DNA of 64,000 nt from Deltaproteobacteria bacterium (lineage in GTDB: Bacteria > Myxococcota_A > UBA796 > SXON01), in assembly GCA_947445035.1 (NCBI GenBank), contig CANFCK010000001.1:300044-364043 (forward strand). Reading direction: 5' to 3'. The stretch's first letter is position 1. The number at the start of each line of letters is the position of its first letter. This document shows positions 33,491 to 39,646 of the stretch, in pieces. The translations under genes were made by a program, and so were the position numbers. The notes below the pieces were generated by a model that saw nothing but the letters and a program-made list of their open reading frames with translations, did not search any database and was not told the origin of the DNA.

Positions 33491-33519
33491 TTGACATGCC
33501 AAGAGTGGTCCGGTAGCCT
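33491..33519 (+). promoter_or_regulatory. Promoter with perfect -35 and 17-bp spacing, leaderless start
   Basis: TTGACA at 33491-33496 and TAGCCT at 33514-33519 are 17 bases apart. The GTG start at 33527 is 7 bases after the -10, where transcription would begin, so the mRNA should have no 5' leader. This is the best example of a pattern repeated across the window. Confidence 0.75.
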
Positions 33520-33526
33520 CGCCCTC

Positions 33527-34528
33527 GTGAACCGTACCGCCCGTCGCCTCGATGTCTGGCGCGCCCGTCAGGGCACCACCTTCGATCCCGAAACCGCGCA
33601 CGCCGAGTCCGCGATCCGCGCGCGCACGGCGCGTCGGGTCCGTGCCAACCTGCGCCGGTTGGATCCGGTTGCGATGCTTACACCTCGTTGGACGGCGCCC
33701 CAGGCCTTCCTCGAAGACATCGCCCTGGATCTCGCCGTCGGCGAACCCGCCGTTGGCTGTCGCACCGTGTCGTTCCGACCGCTCCTGGGCCGTGCCCCCG
33801 CCGAAGCGTGGAACTTCATCCTACGCGTGCTCTCCGACCTCGGCGGCACCGGCTGGCAGCAGCGTCCGCTGCCGATGGTCGTCGATCGGCGGGGTTTCTA
33901 CTGCGCGTCAGAACAGCTCCTCGACGAAGCGCACGAAGATTCGCCCTACCCCGTGGCGCTGCTCGGGCACTCCTGCGAGCACCTGCCTGTCGAGGTCCTG
34001 GAGGATCTCGCGCTCGTCTGGGCCCGGTATGCCGAACGCGCCCAGGGCGAACGGCGCTGCACCGTGCTCCTTGCGGGCTCGGTGGACACCCCGGCGCTCG
34101 ACGTCGGCGGTGCGGTCCGCGTGGACCTGTGCGACCTCGGTGAGGGCGAGGCGGCGGCGGCCCTGGTAATGCAGGTCGGCGCGATCCCGCCGCGGCTTTT
34201 GCAACGGGCTGCGCAGTTCTCGGGTGGGGTGCCGGCGATGGTCAGCGCGCTCGGACAGGGCGTCGCCCAAGGCGCGTTCCCCTCGCTTCCCGAAGACATG
34301 CTCCGTGCGATGGGCCCGGTCGCCGAAGACCTGCGCGCCGCCGTTCAGAGCGTGATGACCTCGCCAGAAGCGGCCGAGCGCCTCTACCAGCTGCTCCCCG
34401 GCGAGCCTTTGGTGGAGGAGCCCTCGGTCGATCGCGGGCTGATGATGGCGGGCCTGTTGCGACGCGCGCGCACCCTGGGTGAGCCGAAGGTCGAGCTGCG
34501 TACGCCGGCGGTTTTGGCGACGTTCTGA
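33527..34528 (+). CDS. AAA-like ATPase-fold protein lacking an obvious Walker A
   Basis: A 333-residue protein. After an Arg-rich N-terminus, FLEDIALDLAVGEP, TVSFRPLLGRAPAEAWNFIL, YPVALLGHSCEHLPVEVLED, CTVLLAGSVDTPA and FSGGVPAMVSALGQ follow in the order of strands and helices of an Orc1/STAND-type AAA ATPase: an upstream nucleotide region, a Walker-B-like ALLGH strand, a sensor strand LLAGS, and the lid GG-P. No G-x4-GK-S/T loop is present. It may be a non-hydrolysing relative. It is transcribed from a strong leaderless promoter, divergent to the unknown helical protein; the two may act together. Confidence 0.5.
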   Translation: MNRTARRLDVWRARQGTTFDPETAHAESAIRARTARRVRANLRRLDPVAMLTPRWTAPQAFLEDIALDLAVGEPAVGCRTVSFRPLLGRAPAEAWNFILRVLSDLGGTGWQQRPLPMVVDRRGFYCASEQLLDEAHEDSPYPVALLGHSCEHLPVEVLEDLALVWARYAERAQGERRCTVLLAGSVDTPALDVGGAVRVDLCDLGEGEAAAALVMQVGAIPPRLLQRAAQFSGGVPAMVSALGQGVAQGAFPSLPEDMLRAMGPVAEDLRAAVQSVMTSPEAAERLYQLLPGEPLVEEPSVDRGLMMAGLLRRARTLGEPKVELRTPAVLATF

Positions 34529-34589
34529 TATGAGTTGGGCTAGTCGGCGAACGGGGCGACCCATTCCCTGCCCACGTGGCGCCCGGGAC

Positions 34590-35081
34590 TCATCCTCCGG
34601 TTCGGTCGAGCCACAACGAGTCCCCCCGCCGAACCACCGGGAATGTCCGAAGCCCCGCGGTGGCCGGACCAACCAAAACAGCCCCGTCCTCCGCAAAGAC
34701 TGACCCGTGGCAGGGGCAGATGGCCGTGTCCGTCGCCGCATCCCAGTCAGTCTCACAGGCGCCGTGGCTGCAGATGCGCCACACGGCGACGTAGCAGTCC
34801 TCGGCGATCATCGCGATGACGACGTTGAGCAGATGCTCGGGCAGCACGACGTAGACGTACCCACCGACGGTGCGAAGCGCGGTGTAGTCGGCGAGGGCGA
34901 GCTCGACCCAGCCCGAGGTCGCCGCGCCGGTGTCAACGCAAGCCGACCCCTCCGTGTCGGTAGCGGTGTCGCGTTCTTGCGCCTCCGTCGCCGCCGCCCG
35001 CTCGAACGCCCCTCGCCGATCGCAGCCAGCGACCGCTGCGCACGCACCCGCGCAGGTGAGAAGCGCCCGCCGGGAGATCAC
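34590..35081 (-). CDS. Rieske [2Fe-2S] lipoprotein
   Basis: A 163-residue exported protein. The start VISRRALLTCAGACAAVAGC combines a twin-Arg pair with a lipobox. The Rieske cluster motifs are ICSHGAC (Cys, His) and CPCHGSVF (Cys, His), with the family Pro after the second box in GLRTFPVV. Two further Cys (CSHGAC and CPCH) can form the stabilising disulfide. It is shorter than bc1 Rieske subunits and lacks a neighbouring cytochrome b, so it is more likely a stand-alone electron carrier. GTG 35081 overlaps the upstream stop; it is the third gene of the operon behind the riboswitch-like leader. Confidence 0.85.
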   Translation of the reverse strand: MISRRALLTCAGACAAVAGCDRRGAFERAAATEAQERDTATDTEGSACVDTGAATSGWVELALADYTALRTVGGYVYVVLPEHLLNVVIAMIAEDCYVAVWRICSHGACETDWDAATDTAICPCHGSVFAEDGAVLVGPATAGLRTFPVVRRGDSLWLDRTGG

Positions 35082-35806
35082 CAAGCTTCGCCGTTGAGCA
35101 CCGCCATCGCATCCAGATCGAACCCTCCGCTGACCCCGTCGTAGCTGTTCGCACCGCTGTCGCGGACGCGGACAAAACGCGCCCGACTCACGCCGATGTC
35201 GGCAAGATCGAAGCGGTCGCCGCCAGCGACCTCGGGCTCGGTGGCGTCCACCCCGTTGGTCGAGTTCGCGTACACCAGGGCCACGCCGGCGCACCCGGGG
35301 TAGCCGCCCTCGGCGTCTTCGGCAGCGCAAGGCCACTCGGTCCACATGACGCCATCGTCGCTGACCGCGACCACGCCGGTCTCCGCCCATCCCGTGAAGG
35401 GATTCTCGAAGACCAGCAGGTCGGGACCAGCGCCATCGACGATGTCGAGGGCCCGGAAGCTCACGACGATGCTGCCGGCGTCGCCGAACGACAGGACATC
35501 GAGAGCGCCGCCGCCGTTGCCCGGGGCCTCGGGCGCCCCAAAGACCACGTCCGGGAACTTGTCCTGGCCGTAGCCGGCCCCCACCCCCGGCACATAGCTG
35601 ACCACGGCTTCCACGAAGGGCCACGGGTCGTAGCTGACCACGGGGACACCGGTGTCGGCGCTGTCGCCCGTGTCGGCGCTGTCGCCGGTTTCCCCGCTGT
35701 CCGCCGTGTCGGCGGCGTCTGCCGGCCCGGTGTCACCCAAGTCCGCGGGCGCCTTGGTGCCGGCCTCGTCAGCCGTGCAGCCGAAGAGGACGACCAGCGT
35801 GATCAC
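35078..35806 (-). CDS. Surface lipoprotein with Asp/Thr stalk and cell-surface beta domain
   Basis: A 242-residue lipoprotein (VITLVVLFGCTAD; Cys ~10). Residues ~20-55 form a DTADSGETGDSADTGDS stalk that would lift the domain off the membrane. The remaining ~185 residues are one beta-rich domain: GAGYGQDKFPDVVFG, LSFGDAGSIVVSF, IVDGAGPDLLVFENPF, GVVAVSDDGVMWTEW and a final FDLDAMAV. This set recurs in proteins named cell surface protein in marine and deltaproteobacterial genomes, whose ligand is not established. GTG 35806 overlaps the stop of the preceding repeat lipoprotein. Riboswitch-like control of this operon makes a cofactor-binding role worth testing. Confidence 0.75.
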   Translation of the reverse strand: MITLVVLFGCTADEAGTKAPADLGDTGPADAADTADSGETGDSADTGDSADTGVPVVSYDPWPFVEAVVSYVPGVGAGYGQDKFPDVVFGAPEAPGNGGGALDVLSFGDAGSIVVSFRALDIVDGAGPDLLVFENPFTGWAETGVVAVSDDGVMWTEWPCAAEDAEGGYPGCAGVALVYANSTNGVDATEPEVAGGDRFDLADIGVSRARFVRVRDSGANSYDGVSGGFDLDAMAVLNGEAW

Positions 35807-37002
35807 GGCGCTGCCATCGAGGTCCAGGAGAAGCCGCCGCATCCGGAGGTGGCGGGGTCGGTCGCATCGGCCGCCGGCGTCGCGAGGGCGTCGGCTTCGG
35901 TGACCGCGGCGTAGGCGGTCTGGCAGTACCAGAGGGTGCCGCCCGAGTCCCACGTCCAGTCGAAGCGGCTCCACAGGCTGGGAGACCACGCGTTGGTTTC
36001 GGCGTTCTGCGCGATCAACCACCCGTCGACGTCAGTCGCCTGGCTGATGTCGTAGCGCGAGGTCCCGTTGGTCCAGGCGAAGGCGTTGATGCTGTGCGTG
36101 CCACCCGAGTTGTCCGCCCACTCCCCGTTGATCGAGAGCATCGAGCGCAGCTCCGTCCAGGAGAATCCACCGCAGCCGCCGGCAAGATCGCCATCGTCAG
36201 CACGGGGCGTGGCCAGCGCGTCGGCTTCGCTGGCGGCGGCGTAGGCGGTCTGGCAGTAGTAGATCGAACCCGCGTCGCCCACGGTCCAGTCGAACCGGCT
36301 CCACAGGTCGGGATTATAGCTGTTGTCAGCCCCATTCTGCGCGATGAGTCGGTACTGGGAAGGCTCGTTGTCGGTGATCGCGAAGCGGTCGCCCCACGAC
36401 TGCCAGGTGAATGCGTCGATCCAGTGGGTGCCGCCCCAGGAGTCGTCCCAGCCGTCGGTGAGCACGAACGGGGCGCGCAGCACGGACCACGAGAAGCCCC
36501 CGCATCCCGTGGACGGTGACGAGAGGTCGGCCGCGGGCGTCGCGAGGGCAGCAGCCTCCGTGGCGGCGTCGTACGCAGTCTGGCAGTAGAGCAGCTCGCC
36601 GCCGGCCCAGCCCCAGTCAAAGCGGCTCCACAGGCCGGGGTTCCAATCGTTGTCGGCGCCGTTCTCGGCGATGGCGTGGCCGAGCGCGTTGTCGTACTGC
36701 GTGATCTCGTAGCTGGAGCCCATCGAGAGCCAAGCCTCGTTGCTGACCGCGTGGGCGCTGCCCCAGTTGTCCACCCAGTCGCCCAAGACGGCGATGTCGG
36801 CTTGGGTTCCGGTGTCTTCACCGGTGTCGGTGTCTTCACCGGTGTCGGTGTCTTCACCGGTGTCGGTGTCCTCACCGGTGTCGGTGTCCTCGCCGGTGTC
36901 GGTGTCCTCGCCGGTGTCGGCGGTGTCGGCGGTGTCGGTCCCGCACGCGGCGAGGAACGCAAGCAGAATGCTGGTCGAAGAGACAGGGAAAAGGCGGATC
37001 AT
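35803..37002 (-). CDS. Lipoprotein with Asp/Thr stalk and three tandem ~110-residue repeats
   Basis: A 399-residue lipoprotein (SILLAFLAACGTD; Cys 20). Residues 21-67 are a pure EDTDTG stalk. Three related domains follow (~70-180, 181-290, 291-399). Each begins with a W-D.S/W-G..H strand, contains NPGLWSRFDW or its variants NPDLWSRFDW and SPSLWSRFDW, a YCQTAYAA segment and a CGGFSW end. The two Cys per repeat probably form a disulfide, and the many Trp suggest an aromatic binding face. I know no family for it. It is the first gene after the riboswitch-like leader (leader 3' end ~90 bases upstream), so it is a candidate surface binder for the ligand sensed there. Confidence 0.7.
   Translation of the reverse strand: MIRLFPVSSTSILLAFLAACGTDTADTADTGEDTDTGEDTDTGEDTDTGEDTDTGEDTDTGEDTGTQADIAVLGDWVDNWGSAHAVSNEAWLSMGSSYEITQYDNALGHAIAENGADNDWNPGLWSRFDWGWAGGELLYCQTAYDAATEAAALATPAADLSSPSTGCGGFSWSVLRAPFVLTDGWDDSWGGTHWIDAFTWQSWGDRFAITDNEPSQYRLIAQNGADNSYNPDLWSRFDWTVGDAGSIYYCQTAYAAASEADALATPRADDGDLAGGCGGFSWTELRSMLSINGEWADNSGGTHSINAFAWTNGTSRYDISQATDVDGWLIAQNAETNAWSPSLWSRFDWTWDSGGTLWYCQTAYAAVTEADALATPAADATDPATSGCGGFSWTSMAAP
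36817..36918 (-). repeat. 18-bp tandem array coding the EDTDTG stalk
   Basis: About six copies of an 18-bp unit (GGTGTCGGTGTC[TC]TC[AG]CC on the + strand) with only TC/CC and AG third-position changes. The array encodes an acidic EDTDTG spacer. The unit is a multiple of three, so length changes would not break the frame. Confidence 0.85.
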
Positions 37003-37059
37003 CAGAAACTCCACCCCGCATTCTGTTGACGGGGGGAGAGCCGAGACCACCTCGTATCT

Positions 37060-37090
37060 CCACCCATCCCTGGACCGGGGATGTGGGTGG
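37060..37090 (-). promoter_or_regulatory. Expression-platform hairpin between leader aptamer and start codon
   Basis: On the - strand CCACCCACATCCC pairs with GGGATGGGTGG around a 7-base loop (about 11 bp with a small bulge). It lies between the aptamer-like region and the ATG at 37002 and is not followed by a T tract, so it is more likely a translational or alternative-pairing switch than an intrinsic terminator. Confidence 0.5.
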
Positions 37091-37094
37091 TGAA

Positions 37095-37210
37095 ACGTCG
37101 TGTGAGCTGGCCCGACTCGCTGAATTCCTTGAGAGAACGCAGCTTACGGTGGCGGCACCGTGCCGGAATTTCACCGGCTTCCACTCTCAGGCCCGAGCGG
37201 GCCTGCACGT
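37095..37210 (-). ncRNA. Cobalamin-riboswitch-like leader RNA
   Basis: Read on the - strand the leader contains a 7-bp hairpin (CAGGCCC/GGGCCTG, 37188-37205), then GTGGAAGCCGGTGAAATTCC, whose GCCGG/CCGGC stem (37162-37178) has the conserved GGTGAAA..CC form of cobalamin-riboswitch P4. Next is ACGGTG-CCGC-CACCGT (37146-37161), equal to P5 with its CCGCCACxGT loop, then AAGCTG..CAGC (37119-37143) as a P6-like arm, and GAGTCGGGCC, where the class has AGTC/AGCC.GGA..CC. The P7-P9 arms with GGGAAGGC are missing, so it would be a compact variant. The remaining part of the 37003-37321 gap holds another 8-bp GAGA-tetraloop hairpin (37214-37233) and no gene. I am fairly confident it is a structured riboswitch-type element, less so of the ligand. 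Confidence 0.6.
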
Positions 37211-37321
37211 CGCGCCCGGTCTCCCGAGCGCCAGTTGCGTACCACGCCGACCATGGCTGTGCCAGCGGTCCGCGCGCCGTTCGGTGGCGTGACGTACGGA
37301 CCCGAAGCGGCGGGCCGTCCC

Positions 37322-39646
37322 CTACCGCCCTACGATCTCCACCCCGCCCACCGCCAACCACCCTGCGCCCCCGGTTCGCGGCGCATCGCGACCGCCCAAG
37401 TGCTTCCAGTCCAGGGAGACGCTGGCCGGACCGAGCGGGAAGTCGGGTGGCACCTTGATCCGCACCGAGTCGGGGATCCCCTTTCCCGGCTCCCAGCGCC
37501 AGGTCGGGAGTTGGCCGTCGACCGGAAACCAGACGTCCTCCACGACGCCTGCGCTCCCACCGGCCGCGCTCCGCAGTTGGGTGCGCACCTCCCACCCCTC
37601 GCGAATGGCCACATCCGCGCGCCACGTACACCGCAACCACCCCGACGCGCCTTGGGTGATCGTGCTTGCCTCCATCGCGCAGTCCAACATCGACACCTGG
37701 TCTTCCCAGGTCGCGACAGGCGCTCGCGAATCCGGTTGCGGTAGCGCGGTCAGCCAGCGTTCCCGCAGCGCTGCGAAGCGCCCCTGGACGCGGCTGCGCC
37801 AATCTCGGGCGTCCGTGCGCCACGCATCGAGCTTGACCGGGTCCGTCGCCGCCACGAGGTTCTGCCGCTCCTCCGGGTCCGCGGCCAGGTCGAAGAGCTG
37901 CCCGCCACGCTCGCGGTAGTGATCGATGTACTTGGTGGTTCCCTCCCGGCGGGCGAGACACCGGTGGGAGCGCCAGCACGAGTGGTACAACACGCGGTCC
38001 ACCGGCGGTCCCAGCGCATTCTGACCGTCGAGGTGGCCACCGGCGATGTCGATGCCGGCGATGTCCAGAAGCGTCGGCATCAGGTCGATCTGTTGCCAGT
38101 TTCCCTCGATCCACCCTTTCCGGTCGCCAAGTGGCTTGCCCCAGAGCACCCCGGGAATGTGCATTCCTTCTTCCCAGATGAGCAGGTCGTGCTGGTAGCG
38201 ACCGTGCTCGCCGAAGCCTTCGCCATGGTCGCCGAGAATGAGGAAAACCGTGTTGTCGAGCAGTCCGCGCTTGCGGTAGCCCTCGACCAGCTGGCCCAGG
38301 AAGGCGTCGACATAGCCGACGGCGTTGAGGTGCTTGGTCTTGCGCGGCGGGGTGTCGCCGAAGTCGCGCGTGTTCCAATGGGTCGGGGTACCGTAGCCAT
38401 GATGGGAGGTGAGCGTCAGATAGACCGCTAGAAAGGGACTCTCCGAGGGCTTGGCCGACCAGTCCAGGCCCGGGGGCAACATCGCGAGGTCCTCGAGACC
38501 GAAATAGTTGATGGCCTGGAAGCCGTCAGGCAATGCGTCGCGACCCAGCAGTGTTTCAAAGCGCAGGTTGTGGATGAGCCGGTACCGATCTTCGAAGTCC
38601 TCCTGGGCGGACTGGAAGAACGCGGTGCGCCACCCATGGGCCCGGAGAAGTTCGGGAAGGCAACGCCCCGGCAGCCCGCCAGGCTGGGCCTCGGTGACCG
38701 CCGTCCCCAGTCGGGGCCACGTCCCGCAGAGCGACGCGACCAGCGCCTTGGAGGTGTGGGGAACAACCGCGAAAAGCGAACGAAACGCCAGCCCCTCGGT
38801 CGCGAGCCGTGCGAGGTTTGGCGTTGTCGGGAGTGTGGGGTCGTGGACCGTGGTCCGAGCCGCCCCGATCGACTCCAGGAACACGATGACCACGTTGGGG
38901 CGGGTGCTGTCGGCACGAACAGTGGTGACGACCGGATCGAGTTCCCCTGGCGCGGGCGGAATCTCCCGATCGCCCCGGCGTTCGATCGCGTCCAGGTACA
39001 GGTGCTCGAACAAGGAGTTCTGAAGCGACCGCACCTCGGCGATGGCCTTGGGCCGCCGATTGATCTGCTCGTGCCACAGGTAGGGCGCCAGAAGCAGAAA
39101 CCCAGCGAGGCGTGTCATCTTGACCTGCGACGGTGGATTCCAGAAAAGCGGAAGGCCGCCGAGCACCGCGGCGCACGCGATCACCGCGGCGTGTCCGGCG
39201 TGGAACTCAGACGAGAGCACCGGCCAGAACATCGCGAAGTCGCGCCAGATCACCTCCAAAGCGTCCCAGTCCACCCGGGAGCCGGAGATGGAAAAGTAGA
39301 GGAGGTCGATCGACGAAAACACGAAGTACGTCGCCACGAAGGCGTGCAACAGGCAGCGTAGGCCCCTGGCCACGGATGAGCGCCAACCCTCGCCCCGGGG
39401 GTCCAACCACGAGAGTCCCAGCACGCATGCAAAGGTGAAGAGCCCCCACGCCTCGGCGTCCCCGATGTTGACCTCGTACAGGTCCTCGAAGCGCGGCTCC
39501 GGGAGCTCGACCCAGGTGACGTACGTCCGTTGCGCGGCCAACAACGCCCAAGGAACAAGGTTTCCCCACAGAACCGGCCGAAAGTGCCGCCCGGGGAAGG
39601 TCAGTAGCTGAAGGAAGAAGCGTCGTAAGCGGGCCACGGCTATCAT
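37322..39646 (-). CDS. LtaS-like sulfatase-fold membrane phosphotransferase
   Basis: A 774-residue protein: about five transmembrane helices in the first ~210 residues, then an extracytoplasmic alkaline-phosphatase/sulfatase domain. PNVVIVFLESIGA is the first metal site; AVVPHTSKALVASLCG carries Thr (~302) at the nucleophile position, as in lipoteichoic-acid synthases and phosphoethanolamine transferases rather than the Cys/Ser of true sulfatases; ILGDHGEGFGEHG is the second metal site. The C-terminal ~130 residues form an extra beta domain. It probably transfers a phosphoglycerol or phosphoethanolamine group onto an envelope glycan. GTG a few codons into the gene is an alternative start. Confidence 0.8.
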   Translation of the reverse strand: MIAVARLRRFFLQLLTFPGRHFRPVLWGNLVPWALLAAQRTYVTWVELPEPRFEDLYEVNIGDAEAWGLFTFACVLGLSWLDPRGEGWRSSVARGLRCLLHAFVATYFVFSSIDLLYFSISGSRVDWDALEVIWRDFAMFWPVLSSEFHAGHAAVIACAAVLGGLPLFWNPPSQVKMTRLAGFLLLAPYLWHEQINRRPKAIAEVRSLQNSLFEHLYLDAIERRGDREIPPAPGELDPVVTTVRADSTRPNVVIVFLESIGAARTTVHDPTLPTTPNLARLATEGLAFRSLFAVVPHTSKALVASLCGTWPRLGTAVTEAQPGGLPGRCLPELLRAHGWRTAFFQSAQEDFEDRYRLIHNLRFETLLGRDALPDGFQAINYFGLEDLAMLPPGLDWSAKPSESPFLAVYLTLTSHHGYGTPTHWNTRDFGDTPPRKTKHLNAVGYVDAFLGQLVEGYRKRGLLDNTVFLILGDHGEGFGEHGRYQHDLLIWEEGMHIPGVLWGKPLGDRKGWIEGNWQQIDLMPTLLDIAGIDIAGGHLDGQNALGPPVDRVLYHSCWRSHRCLARREGTTKYIDHYRERGGQLFDLAADPEERQNLVAATDPVKLDAWRTDARDWRSRVQGRFAALRERWLTALPQPDSRAPVATWEDQVSMLDCAMEASTITQGASGWLRCTWRADVAIREGWEVRTQLRSAAGGSAGVVEDVWFPVDGQLPTWRWEPGKGIPDSVRIKVPPDFPLGPASVSLDWKHLGGRDAPRTGGAGWLAVGGVEIVGR

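Follow-up and report, generated by a model that had tools for sequence, protein, structure and literature searches.

Why should a leader that resembles a cobalamin riboswitch stand in front of an operon that carries no receptor? This question is raised by a minus-strand operon in a 64,000-nucleotide stretch of a deltaproteobacterial contig (CANFCK010000001.1, positions 300,044 to 364,043; hereafter the window), in which the leader is followed by three genes, namely lipo1, a lipoprotein with Trp-rich repeats, lipo2, a second, stalked lipoprotein, and a Rieske lipoprotein. The initial annotation of this DNA had described the three genes as joined by successive GTGA overlaps and as unaccompanied by a receptor, and both descriptions hold. 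The next gene-like open reading frame (ORF) downstream, 33491-34528, is convergent, so that the operon seems to end at the Rieske gene, and a receptor is found instead outside it, under the other cobalamin riboswitch match of the same genome. Our answer is that the operon is likely to be a cobalamin-riboswitch-controlled system for scavenging corrinoids at the outer surface, and we infer both the surface location of its lipoproteins and their capacity to bind corrinoids.

The leader was scanned in a whole-window run against 4227 Rfam families, of which only RF00174, the cobalamin riboswitch family, reached its gathering score, with an E value of 1.4e-4 for the window and of 2.7e-6 when the whole genome is the search space. 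The riboswitch-like fold proposed earlier is thus borne out, and the RF00174 alignment puts its P4-like and P5-like pairs where they had been drawn; the P6 extension is short. The sequence-based outcomes that the initial annotation had named as refuting, a lack of a significant covariance score and of a P4/P5 pair kept in orthologous loci, did not occur. Alignment and folding of seven leaders, that of the window and those of six relatives (L035-L040; labels beginning with G, C and L denote our genomes, contigs and loci), revealed a structure that is conserved across the orthologous loci, in which P4 never varies and P5 varies at one pair and on one side. Compensatory change is seen in 10 of 74 predicted pairs, four of them in a 5' hairpin competing with the P1 strand of RF00174, two in a P2-like stem, two in a P6-like stem and two farther downstream, and homologous loci reach RF00174 scores of up to 130 bits (G064).

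The association between this riboswitch and these lipoproteins extends well beyond the window. Lipo2, lipo1 and RF00174 were searched for in the same 93 genomes, comprising the window's own and 92 relatives, with strict filters on the riboswitch scan, and a place was counted as linked when RF00174 lay on its strand and no more than 3 kb upstream of it. By this measure RF00174 is linked to 36 of the 50 places found for lipo2 and to 44 of the 58 found for lipo1. Seen from the other side, these genomes contain 142 riboswitches, and 50 of them are followed by lipo1 or lipo2 at a distance of up to 3 kb. Control places, whose match rests wholly or largely on the acidic stalk, had no linked RF00174 (0/24 and 0/46), and the random expectation is about 0.0004 per place. 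A scan of named genomes with a lipo2 profile kept 78 loci, whose titles include Myxococcales, Polyangiaceae, deltaproteobacterial metagenome-assembled genomes and one Candidatus Hydrogenedens, with Corallococcus, Polyangium, Pyxidicoccus, Myxococcus, Hyalangium, Citreicoccus and Lujinxingia as named genera. Fifty of the 78 were scanned directly for riboswitches, and RF00174 at gathering lies within 3 kb upstream of lipo2 in 36. Outside this count, L140 has RF00174 some 3.7 kb upstream of lipo2 with the receptor gene in between, the matches in L078 (31.4 bits) and L152 (26.9 bits) fall below gathering, and no riboswitch linked to lipo2 was found in L089 by the direct scan. Four loci of Corallococcus and a relative (L102, L108, L112 and L128) have lipo2 twice, in tandem units that are each preceded by a riboswitch of their own, and in L102 an extra large lipoprotein with no Pfam match is inserted between riboswitch and lipo2.

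Several relatives also place the lipoproteins beside genes for B12 uptake. We use receptor and propeller for members of families built from L067 sequences, the propeller label being a prediction (no Pfam match, and only weak WD40 matches in the PDB). Lipo2 is clustered on the same strand with a BtuB-like TonB gene in L072, L074, L093, L096, L097, L098, L109, L114 and L140. The riboswitch is followed by lipo1 repeats, lipo2, receptor and propeller in L074 and L114, by lipo2, receptor and propeller in L096, L097, L098 and L109, and by propeller, lipo2 and receptor in L093, and the order riboswitch, propeller, lipo2 recurs in L094, L095, L103, L105 and L111. L067 has two riboswitch units in convergent orientation, of which one contains receptor and propeller and the other lipo1 and lipo2. 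The setting typical of BtuH, a riboswitch locus with BtuB, is present in relatives and not in the window operon itself. The window's own genome (G000, 5.27 Mb, 92% complete) contains two RF00174 matches, and the second, located on contig C19, is followed by a TonB-dependent receptor, a Pfam-less propeller-like gene and more genes up to an ATP-binding cassette (ABC)/CbiQ transporter gene; the PDB sequences that match this receptor best belong to chains with the name BtuB (E 8.8e-18). Of B12-dependent methionine synthase (MetH) the activation domain is present (E 1.2e-38), CbiC has no match in the genome, and CbiT has none above the cut-off, only weaker ones. The bacterium is thus probably a B12 user that imports the cofactor and is unable to make it.

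Of the three proteins, lipo2 has a modelled domain of 190 residues with 29 invariant columns over 63 sequences, including two cysteines, FEN and FDLD. The AlphaFold2 model (predicted local distance difference test, pLDDT, 94) has as its top match among 350,542 PDB chains the structure 7biz, which is BtuH2 (E 1.2e-3, probability 1.00, template modelling (TM) score 0.55). Searches of lipo2 against Pfam and PDB sequences gave no useful annotation, and since no sequence match to BtuH was found, lipo2 is at most a candidate member of that family, with BtuH2 as the closest fold. Assignment to DUF4465, the BtuJ family, was considered and found no support, with no Pfam match among the 63 lipo2 members at E up to 0.01 and with the BtuJ entries 9FCT and 9I2L absent among the 50 PDB structural matches listed. 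The conserved lipo2 motifs GFGQ and FENPF appear to agree with the B12 contacts Gln333, Asn399 and Phe401 of BtuH2, an agreement to which we give no weight, and a tblastn search of plasmids with one lipo2 homologue as query found no match. The model of lipo1 repeat 2 is equally confident (pLDDT 95) and has no good match in the PDB (best E 1.0), so that the repeat may represent an undescribed fold; searches of lipo1 against Pfam, PDB sequences and PHROGs yielded no useful annotation, and none of the described B12 families in the libraries searched was matched.

Both lipoproteins do find distant counterparts in Leptospira. The LIC13354 exoprotein family is matched by 18 of 22 lipo1 domains (best 4.1e-10) and the LIC_13355 lipoprotein family by nine of ten lipo2 homologues tested (best 3.5e-12). 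These matches are significant, but they stay below the curated cut-offs, which are 130 bits for LIC13354 (NF047669; window lipo1 27.4) and 120 bits for LIC_13355 (NF033170; window lipo2 18.3, best of the ten homologues 46.1). As the Leptospira locus numbers are consecutive, the pair itself seems to be conserved.

The third gene encodes a Rieske protein (PF00355, E 2.5e-8, 34.2 bits against a cut-off of 20.3) in which the CxH and CxxH ligands are present. Its ten best non-self matches in the 93 genomes score 87-142 bits, and eight of these adjoin lipo2, one adjoins lipo1 alone and one (G047:C43) adjoins neither, whereas none of the next 11 matches adjoins lipo1 or lipo2, which indicates that the window Rieske protein belongs to a lineage of its own. 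Of 41 loci, 9, among them the window, have a Rieske gene after lipo2 or lipo1, as have 7 of the 50 further loci (L099, L102, L108, L112, L115, L126 and L137, some of them named Myxococcaceae); the gene is an optional component of these loci. The record of L115 is named Comamonas sp. KCTC 72670; its 9 Mb genome has the Myxococcaceae-type lipo2-Rieske arrangement, and the name looks wrong. The claim that these are a new type of surface corrinoid-binding proteins draws support from the conserved linkage, the clustering with BtuB-like genes and the BtuH2 match, and because lipo2 looks BtuH-like, the words "new type" apply best to lipo1 and the Rieske component.

A number of observations weigh against a corrinoid-scavenging role and have to be set beside this evidence. 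As a match to RF00174 the window aptamer is compact and weak: it exceeds the threshold by only 1.3 bits, has several P1 mismatches and shows a shortened J6/3 beside the B12 box; in the folded alignment the P1 5' strand favours a local hairpin, and the near-invariance of P4 and P5 means that these helices offer no covariation support. Linkage is incomplete, with 14 of 50 lipo2 and 14 of 58 lipo1 places unlinked under the strict filters, some of them at contig edges (misses of this kind include G030:C63, G031:C376, G035:C407, G038:C112, G050:C116 and G067:C143), and 14 of the 50 further loci have no RF00174 at gathering in range. All four Polyangium loci (L104, L107, L110 and L113) have none nearby, which suggests that the linkage was lost or looks different in that lineage. 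The 7biz match narrowly misses an E value of 0.001, discoidin and CBM32 domains rank close behind it, and a profile of the 63 lipo2 domains run against PDB chain sequences retrieved no BtuH chain at E ≤10. Next to lipo2 the four nearest relatives (L035-L038) showed no Rieske gene, with one of these loci cut by a contig edge. The available text on L. interrogans names two cobalamin riboswitches, neither of them at LIC13354/13355 (PMC3953431), and with a genome that is 92% complete the missing CbiC is no proof of auxotrophy.

How far, then, do these points favour other explanations? That the RF00174 match is a chance hit or a relic, and the operon unrelated to B12, would accord with the narrow excess over threshold and is very improbable given the scores of homologous loci, the compensatory changes in the leader and the lack of a riboswitch at any of 70 control places. 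A more serious contender, which we nevertheless regard as unlikely, is that the lipoproteins are regulated by B12 without binding corrinoids, and serve as a receptor scaffold, in vesicle release or in cell adhesion when B12 is scarce. There is precedent for this in B. theta, where BtuL and BtuK2, although encoded in operons for B12 uptake, are reported not to have bound cobalamin (PMC12751083), and in the binding of laminin and plasminogen reported for LIC_13355 (PMC11891782), and the fold of lipo1, with no good PDB match, also fits it; against it, the best PDB match of lipo2 is a B12-binding lipoprotein, and in L096, L097, L098 and L109 the riboswitch is followed by lipo2 before any other recognised gene, with receptor and propeller coming after it.

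Less likely again is that the operon serves the redox processing of corrinoid or cobalt, with the Rieske protein as the working part and lipo1 and lipo2 as its docking proteins. The near-specificity of the closest Rieske relatives to lipo1/lipo2 operons, and the recurrence of the gene in both sets of loci, speak for such a role, yet the remaining 32 of the 41 loci yielded no Rieske gene (several of them are cut by contig edges), so that it is unlikely to be a core component, and the window operon holds no redox partner gene. We prefer corrinoid scavenging over these explanations. A bolder version would join three proposals: that lipo1 is a new-fold, corrinoid-binding surface repeat, that the Rieske protein is a dedicated extracytoplasmic corrinoid redox protein converting captured forms, such as aquo- and cyano-cobalamin, ahead of their transfer to BtuB or in the course of it, and that LIC13354 and LIC_13355 of Leptospira are corrinoid scavengers by homology. 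This combination we entertain only tentatively and would sooner doubt than defend; to our knowledge, extracytoplasmic redox conversion of captured corrinoid is known in no B12 uptake system.

The region between aptamer and start codon suggests how the leader might act. A 31-nt hairpin with a stem-bulge-stem shape is identical in the seven leaders except for one C/T position, with flanks that vary; its 3' arm resembles a Shine-Dalgarno sequence, and its exact pattern has no further occurrence in the collected loci. The putative Shine-Dalgarno sequence itself, GGGGYGGAG across the leaders, is complementary to CCGCC of loop L5 (with one G-U pair), to an upstream C-run and to lipo1 codons 3-5. The complementarity of L5 CCGCC to GGYGG is kept in all seven leaders with variation on one side only, and the kissing contact is a prediction from sequence. 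No intrinsic terminator and no sigma-70-like promoter was found by consensus within 34300-37420; the lack of a terminator-like site does not favour transcription attenuation, and we infer that the leader acts by translational repression upon corrinoid binding. In cobalamin riboswitches, L13 can carry the ribosome-binding site. An L5-L13 kissing loop is described as the sensing link (PMC9600662).

We envisage the following course of events. When corrinoid is scarce the Shine-Dalgarno sequence would be free, and lipo1, lipo2 and the Rieske lipoprotein would be made; once the aptamer binds corrinoid, L5 and the platform hairpins would occlude it. At the cell surface lipo2 would capture corrinoid through its BtuH-like domain, and lipo1, with its repeated aromatic-rich domains, may be a second capture or hand-over protein. 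The cargo could then pass to the BtuB-like receptor whose gene lies outside the operon, behind the second cobalamin riboswitch of the genome. As an accessory of this system, the Rieske protein would probably exchange electrons with a partner or with the corrinoid that has been captured.

Table 1. Features of the lipoprotein operon and its leader (window coordinates)
Feature	Position	Strand	Basis and remarks
Rieske [2Fe-2S] lipoprotein, twin-arginine translocation (Tat) type (SRR...VAGC; CSHGAC...CPCHGS)	34590..35081	-	PF00355; sequence; signal type by eye
lipo2, stalked lipoprotein	35078..35806	-	distant relative of LIC_13355 family; predicted fold nearest BtuH2; alternative start ATG 35842
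lipo1, lipoprotein with Asp/Thr-rich stalk and three ~104-aa Trp-rich repeats	35803..37002	-	ORF, profile searches; distant relative of LIC13354 family
lipo1 repeat 1	36475..36783	-	hidden Markov model (HMM) domain
lipo1 repeat 2 (modelled)	36145..36456	-	HMM domain, structure model
lipo1 repeat 3	35812..36126	-	HMM domain
Shine-Dalgarno-like GGGGTGGAG	37009..37017	-	sequence and leader alignment
31-nt hairpin between aptamer and start	37060..37090	-	conserved in six relatives, L035-L040
Cobalamin riboswitch aptamer (RF00174), compact form	37088..37228	-	32.8 bits against gathering score of 31.5
P5 with loop L5: strands 37161-37156 (ACGGUG) and 37151-37146 (CACCGU); CCGCC 37155-37151	37146..37161	-	sequence, RF00174 and leader alignments
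P4: GCCGG 37178-37174 with CCGGC 37166-37162	37162..37178	-	sequence, RF00174 alignment; invariant in seven leaders

The gene starts in Table 1 differ in certainty. For lipo1 the start is most likely ATG 37002, which gives an ordinary lipoprotein signal; GTG 37050, taken from the ORF list, was dropped, as its frame is broken in L036 (aligned leaders, judged by eye). The start of lipo2 is uncertain, since GTG 35806 would give a very short signal peptide and the in-frame ATG 35842 would give MRRLLLDLDGSAVITLVVLFGC. The latter would put the start of the signal peptide within the codons for the conserved C terminus of lipo1, as an out-of-frame overlap, and several relatives have no equivalent of ATG 35842 and very short lipo2 signals. 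In the leader, J6/3 is shortened or variable across the clade formed by the window and L035-L040, a variation that could alter corrinoid selectivity. Each of the genome's two cobalamin riboswitches has a sulfatase-like gene directly upstream of it on its own strand, 37322-39646 (PF00884) in the window and L003 14358-15866, judged from sequence alone, before the other riboswitch (L003 14164-14298 (-)).

If corrinoid scavenging is indeed its function, the range of riboswitch-controlled B12 lipoprotein systems, described in gut Bacteroides, would widen to include myxobacterial relatives, and the operon would add to these systems lipo1 and lipo2, both without a convincing Pfam family, and a Rieske component not found in the literature searched. 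By title and start of abstract, the publications found in searches on cobalamin riboswitches together with myxobacterial lipoproteins or with Rieske proteins, on B12-binding lipoproteins in Corallococcus and on deltaproteobacterial btuB regulons included none on this operon. It would also provide a second, testable reading for LIC_13355, published as a presumed adhesion lipoprotein.

Comparison with known systems places the operon between several precedents. The Leptospira pair resembles lipo1 and lipo2 in profile, and LIC13354 and LIC13355 are upregulated 3.77- and 3.72-fold in host-adapted (dialysis membrane chamber, DMC) cells (PMC3953431); it differs in that the text available names no cobalamin riboswitch there and in that work on LIC_13355 has concerned host binding, with laminin and plasminogen as its reported ligands (PMC11891782). 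In its leader the operon resembles the class II-type cobalamin riboswitches (env8) in which L13 docks with the ribosome-binding site, which likewise have a compact aptamer, here with a Shine-Dalgarno sequence complementary to L5; the window leader adds the conserved 31-nt hairpin between aptamer and Shine-Dalgarno sequence. The closest protein precedent is BtuH2 (BT_1956, PDB 7BIZ) of Bacteroides thetaiotaomicron, a lipoprotein encoded in riboswitch-bearing cobamide transport loci, and AlyQ, named where modest similarity to known structures is reported for the BtuH B12 domain (PMC8941943), also appears in the match list of lipo2 with its CBM32 domain; lipo2 differs from BtuH2 in having no sequence match to it and in an acidic stalk that replaces the PKD domains. 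Bacteroides is further described as having ten cobalamin-binding proteins spread over four operons, with riboswitch regulation predicted for three (PMC12751083), and DUF4465 B12-binding proteins are often encoded close to TonB-dependent barrels (PMC13398666). BtuG, BtuJ and BtuK of Bacteroides are among several B12-binding surface lipoproteins encoded in riboswitch-regulated uptake operons (PMC12751083), and propeller-like genes occur repeatedly in the lipo1/lipo2 loci, whose products differ in that no lipo2 alignment member matches DUF4465 in Pfam and lipo1 has no convincing counterpart among PDB folds. The window operon probably works like the B12 lipoprotein loci of Bacteroides.

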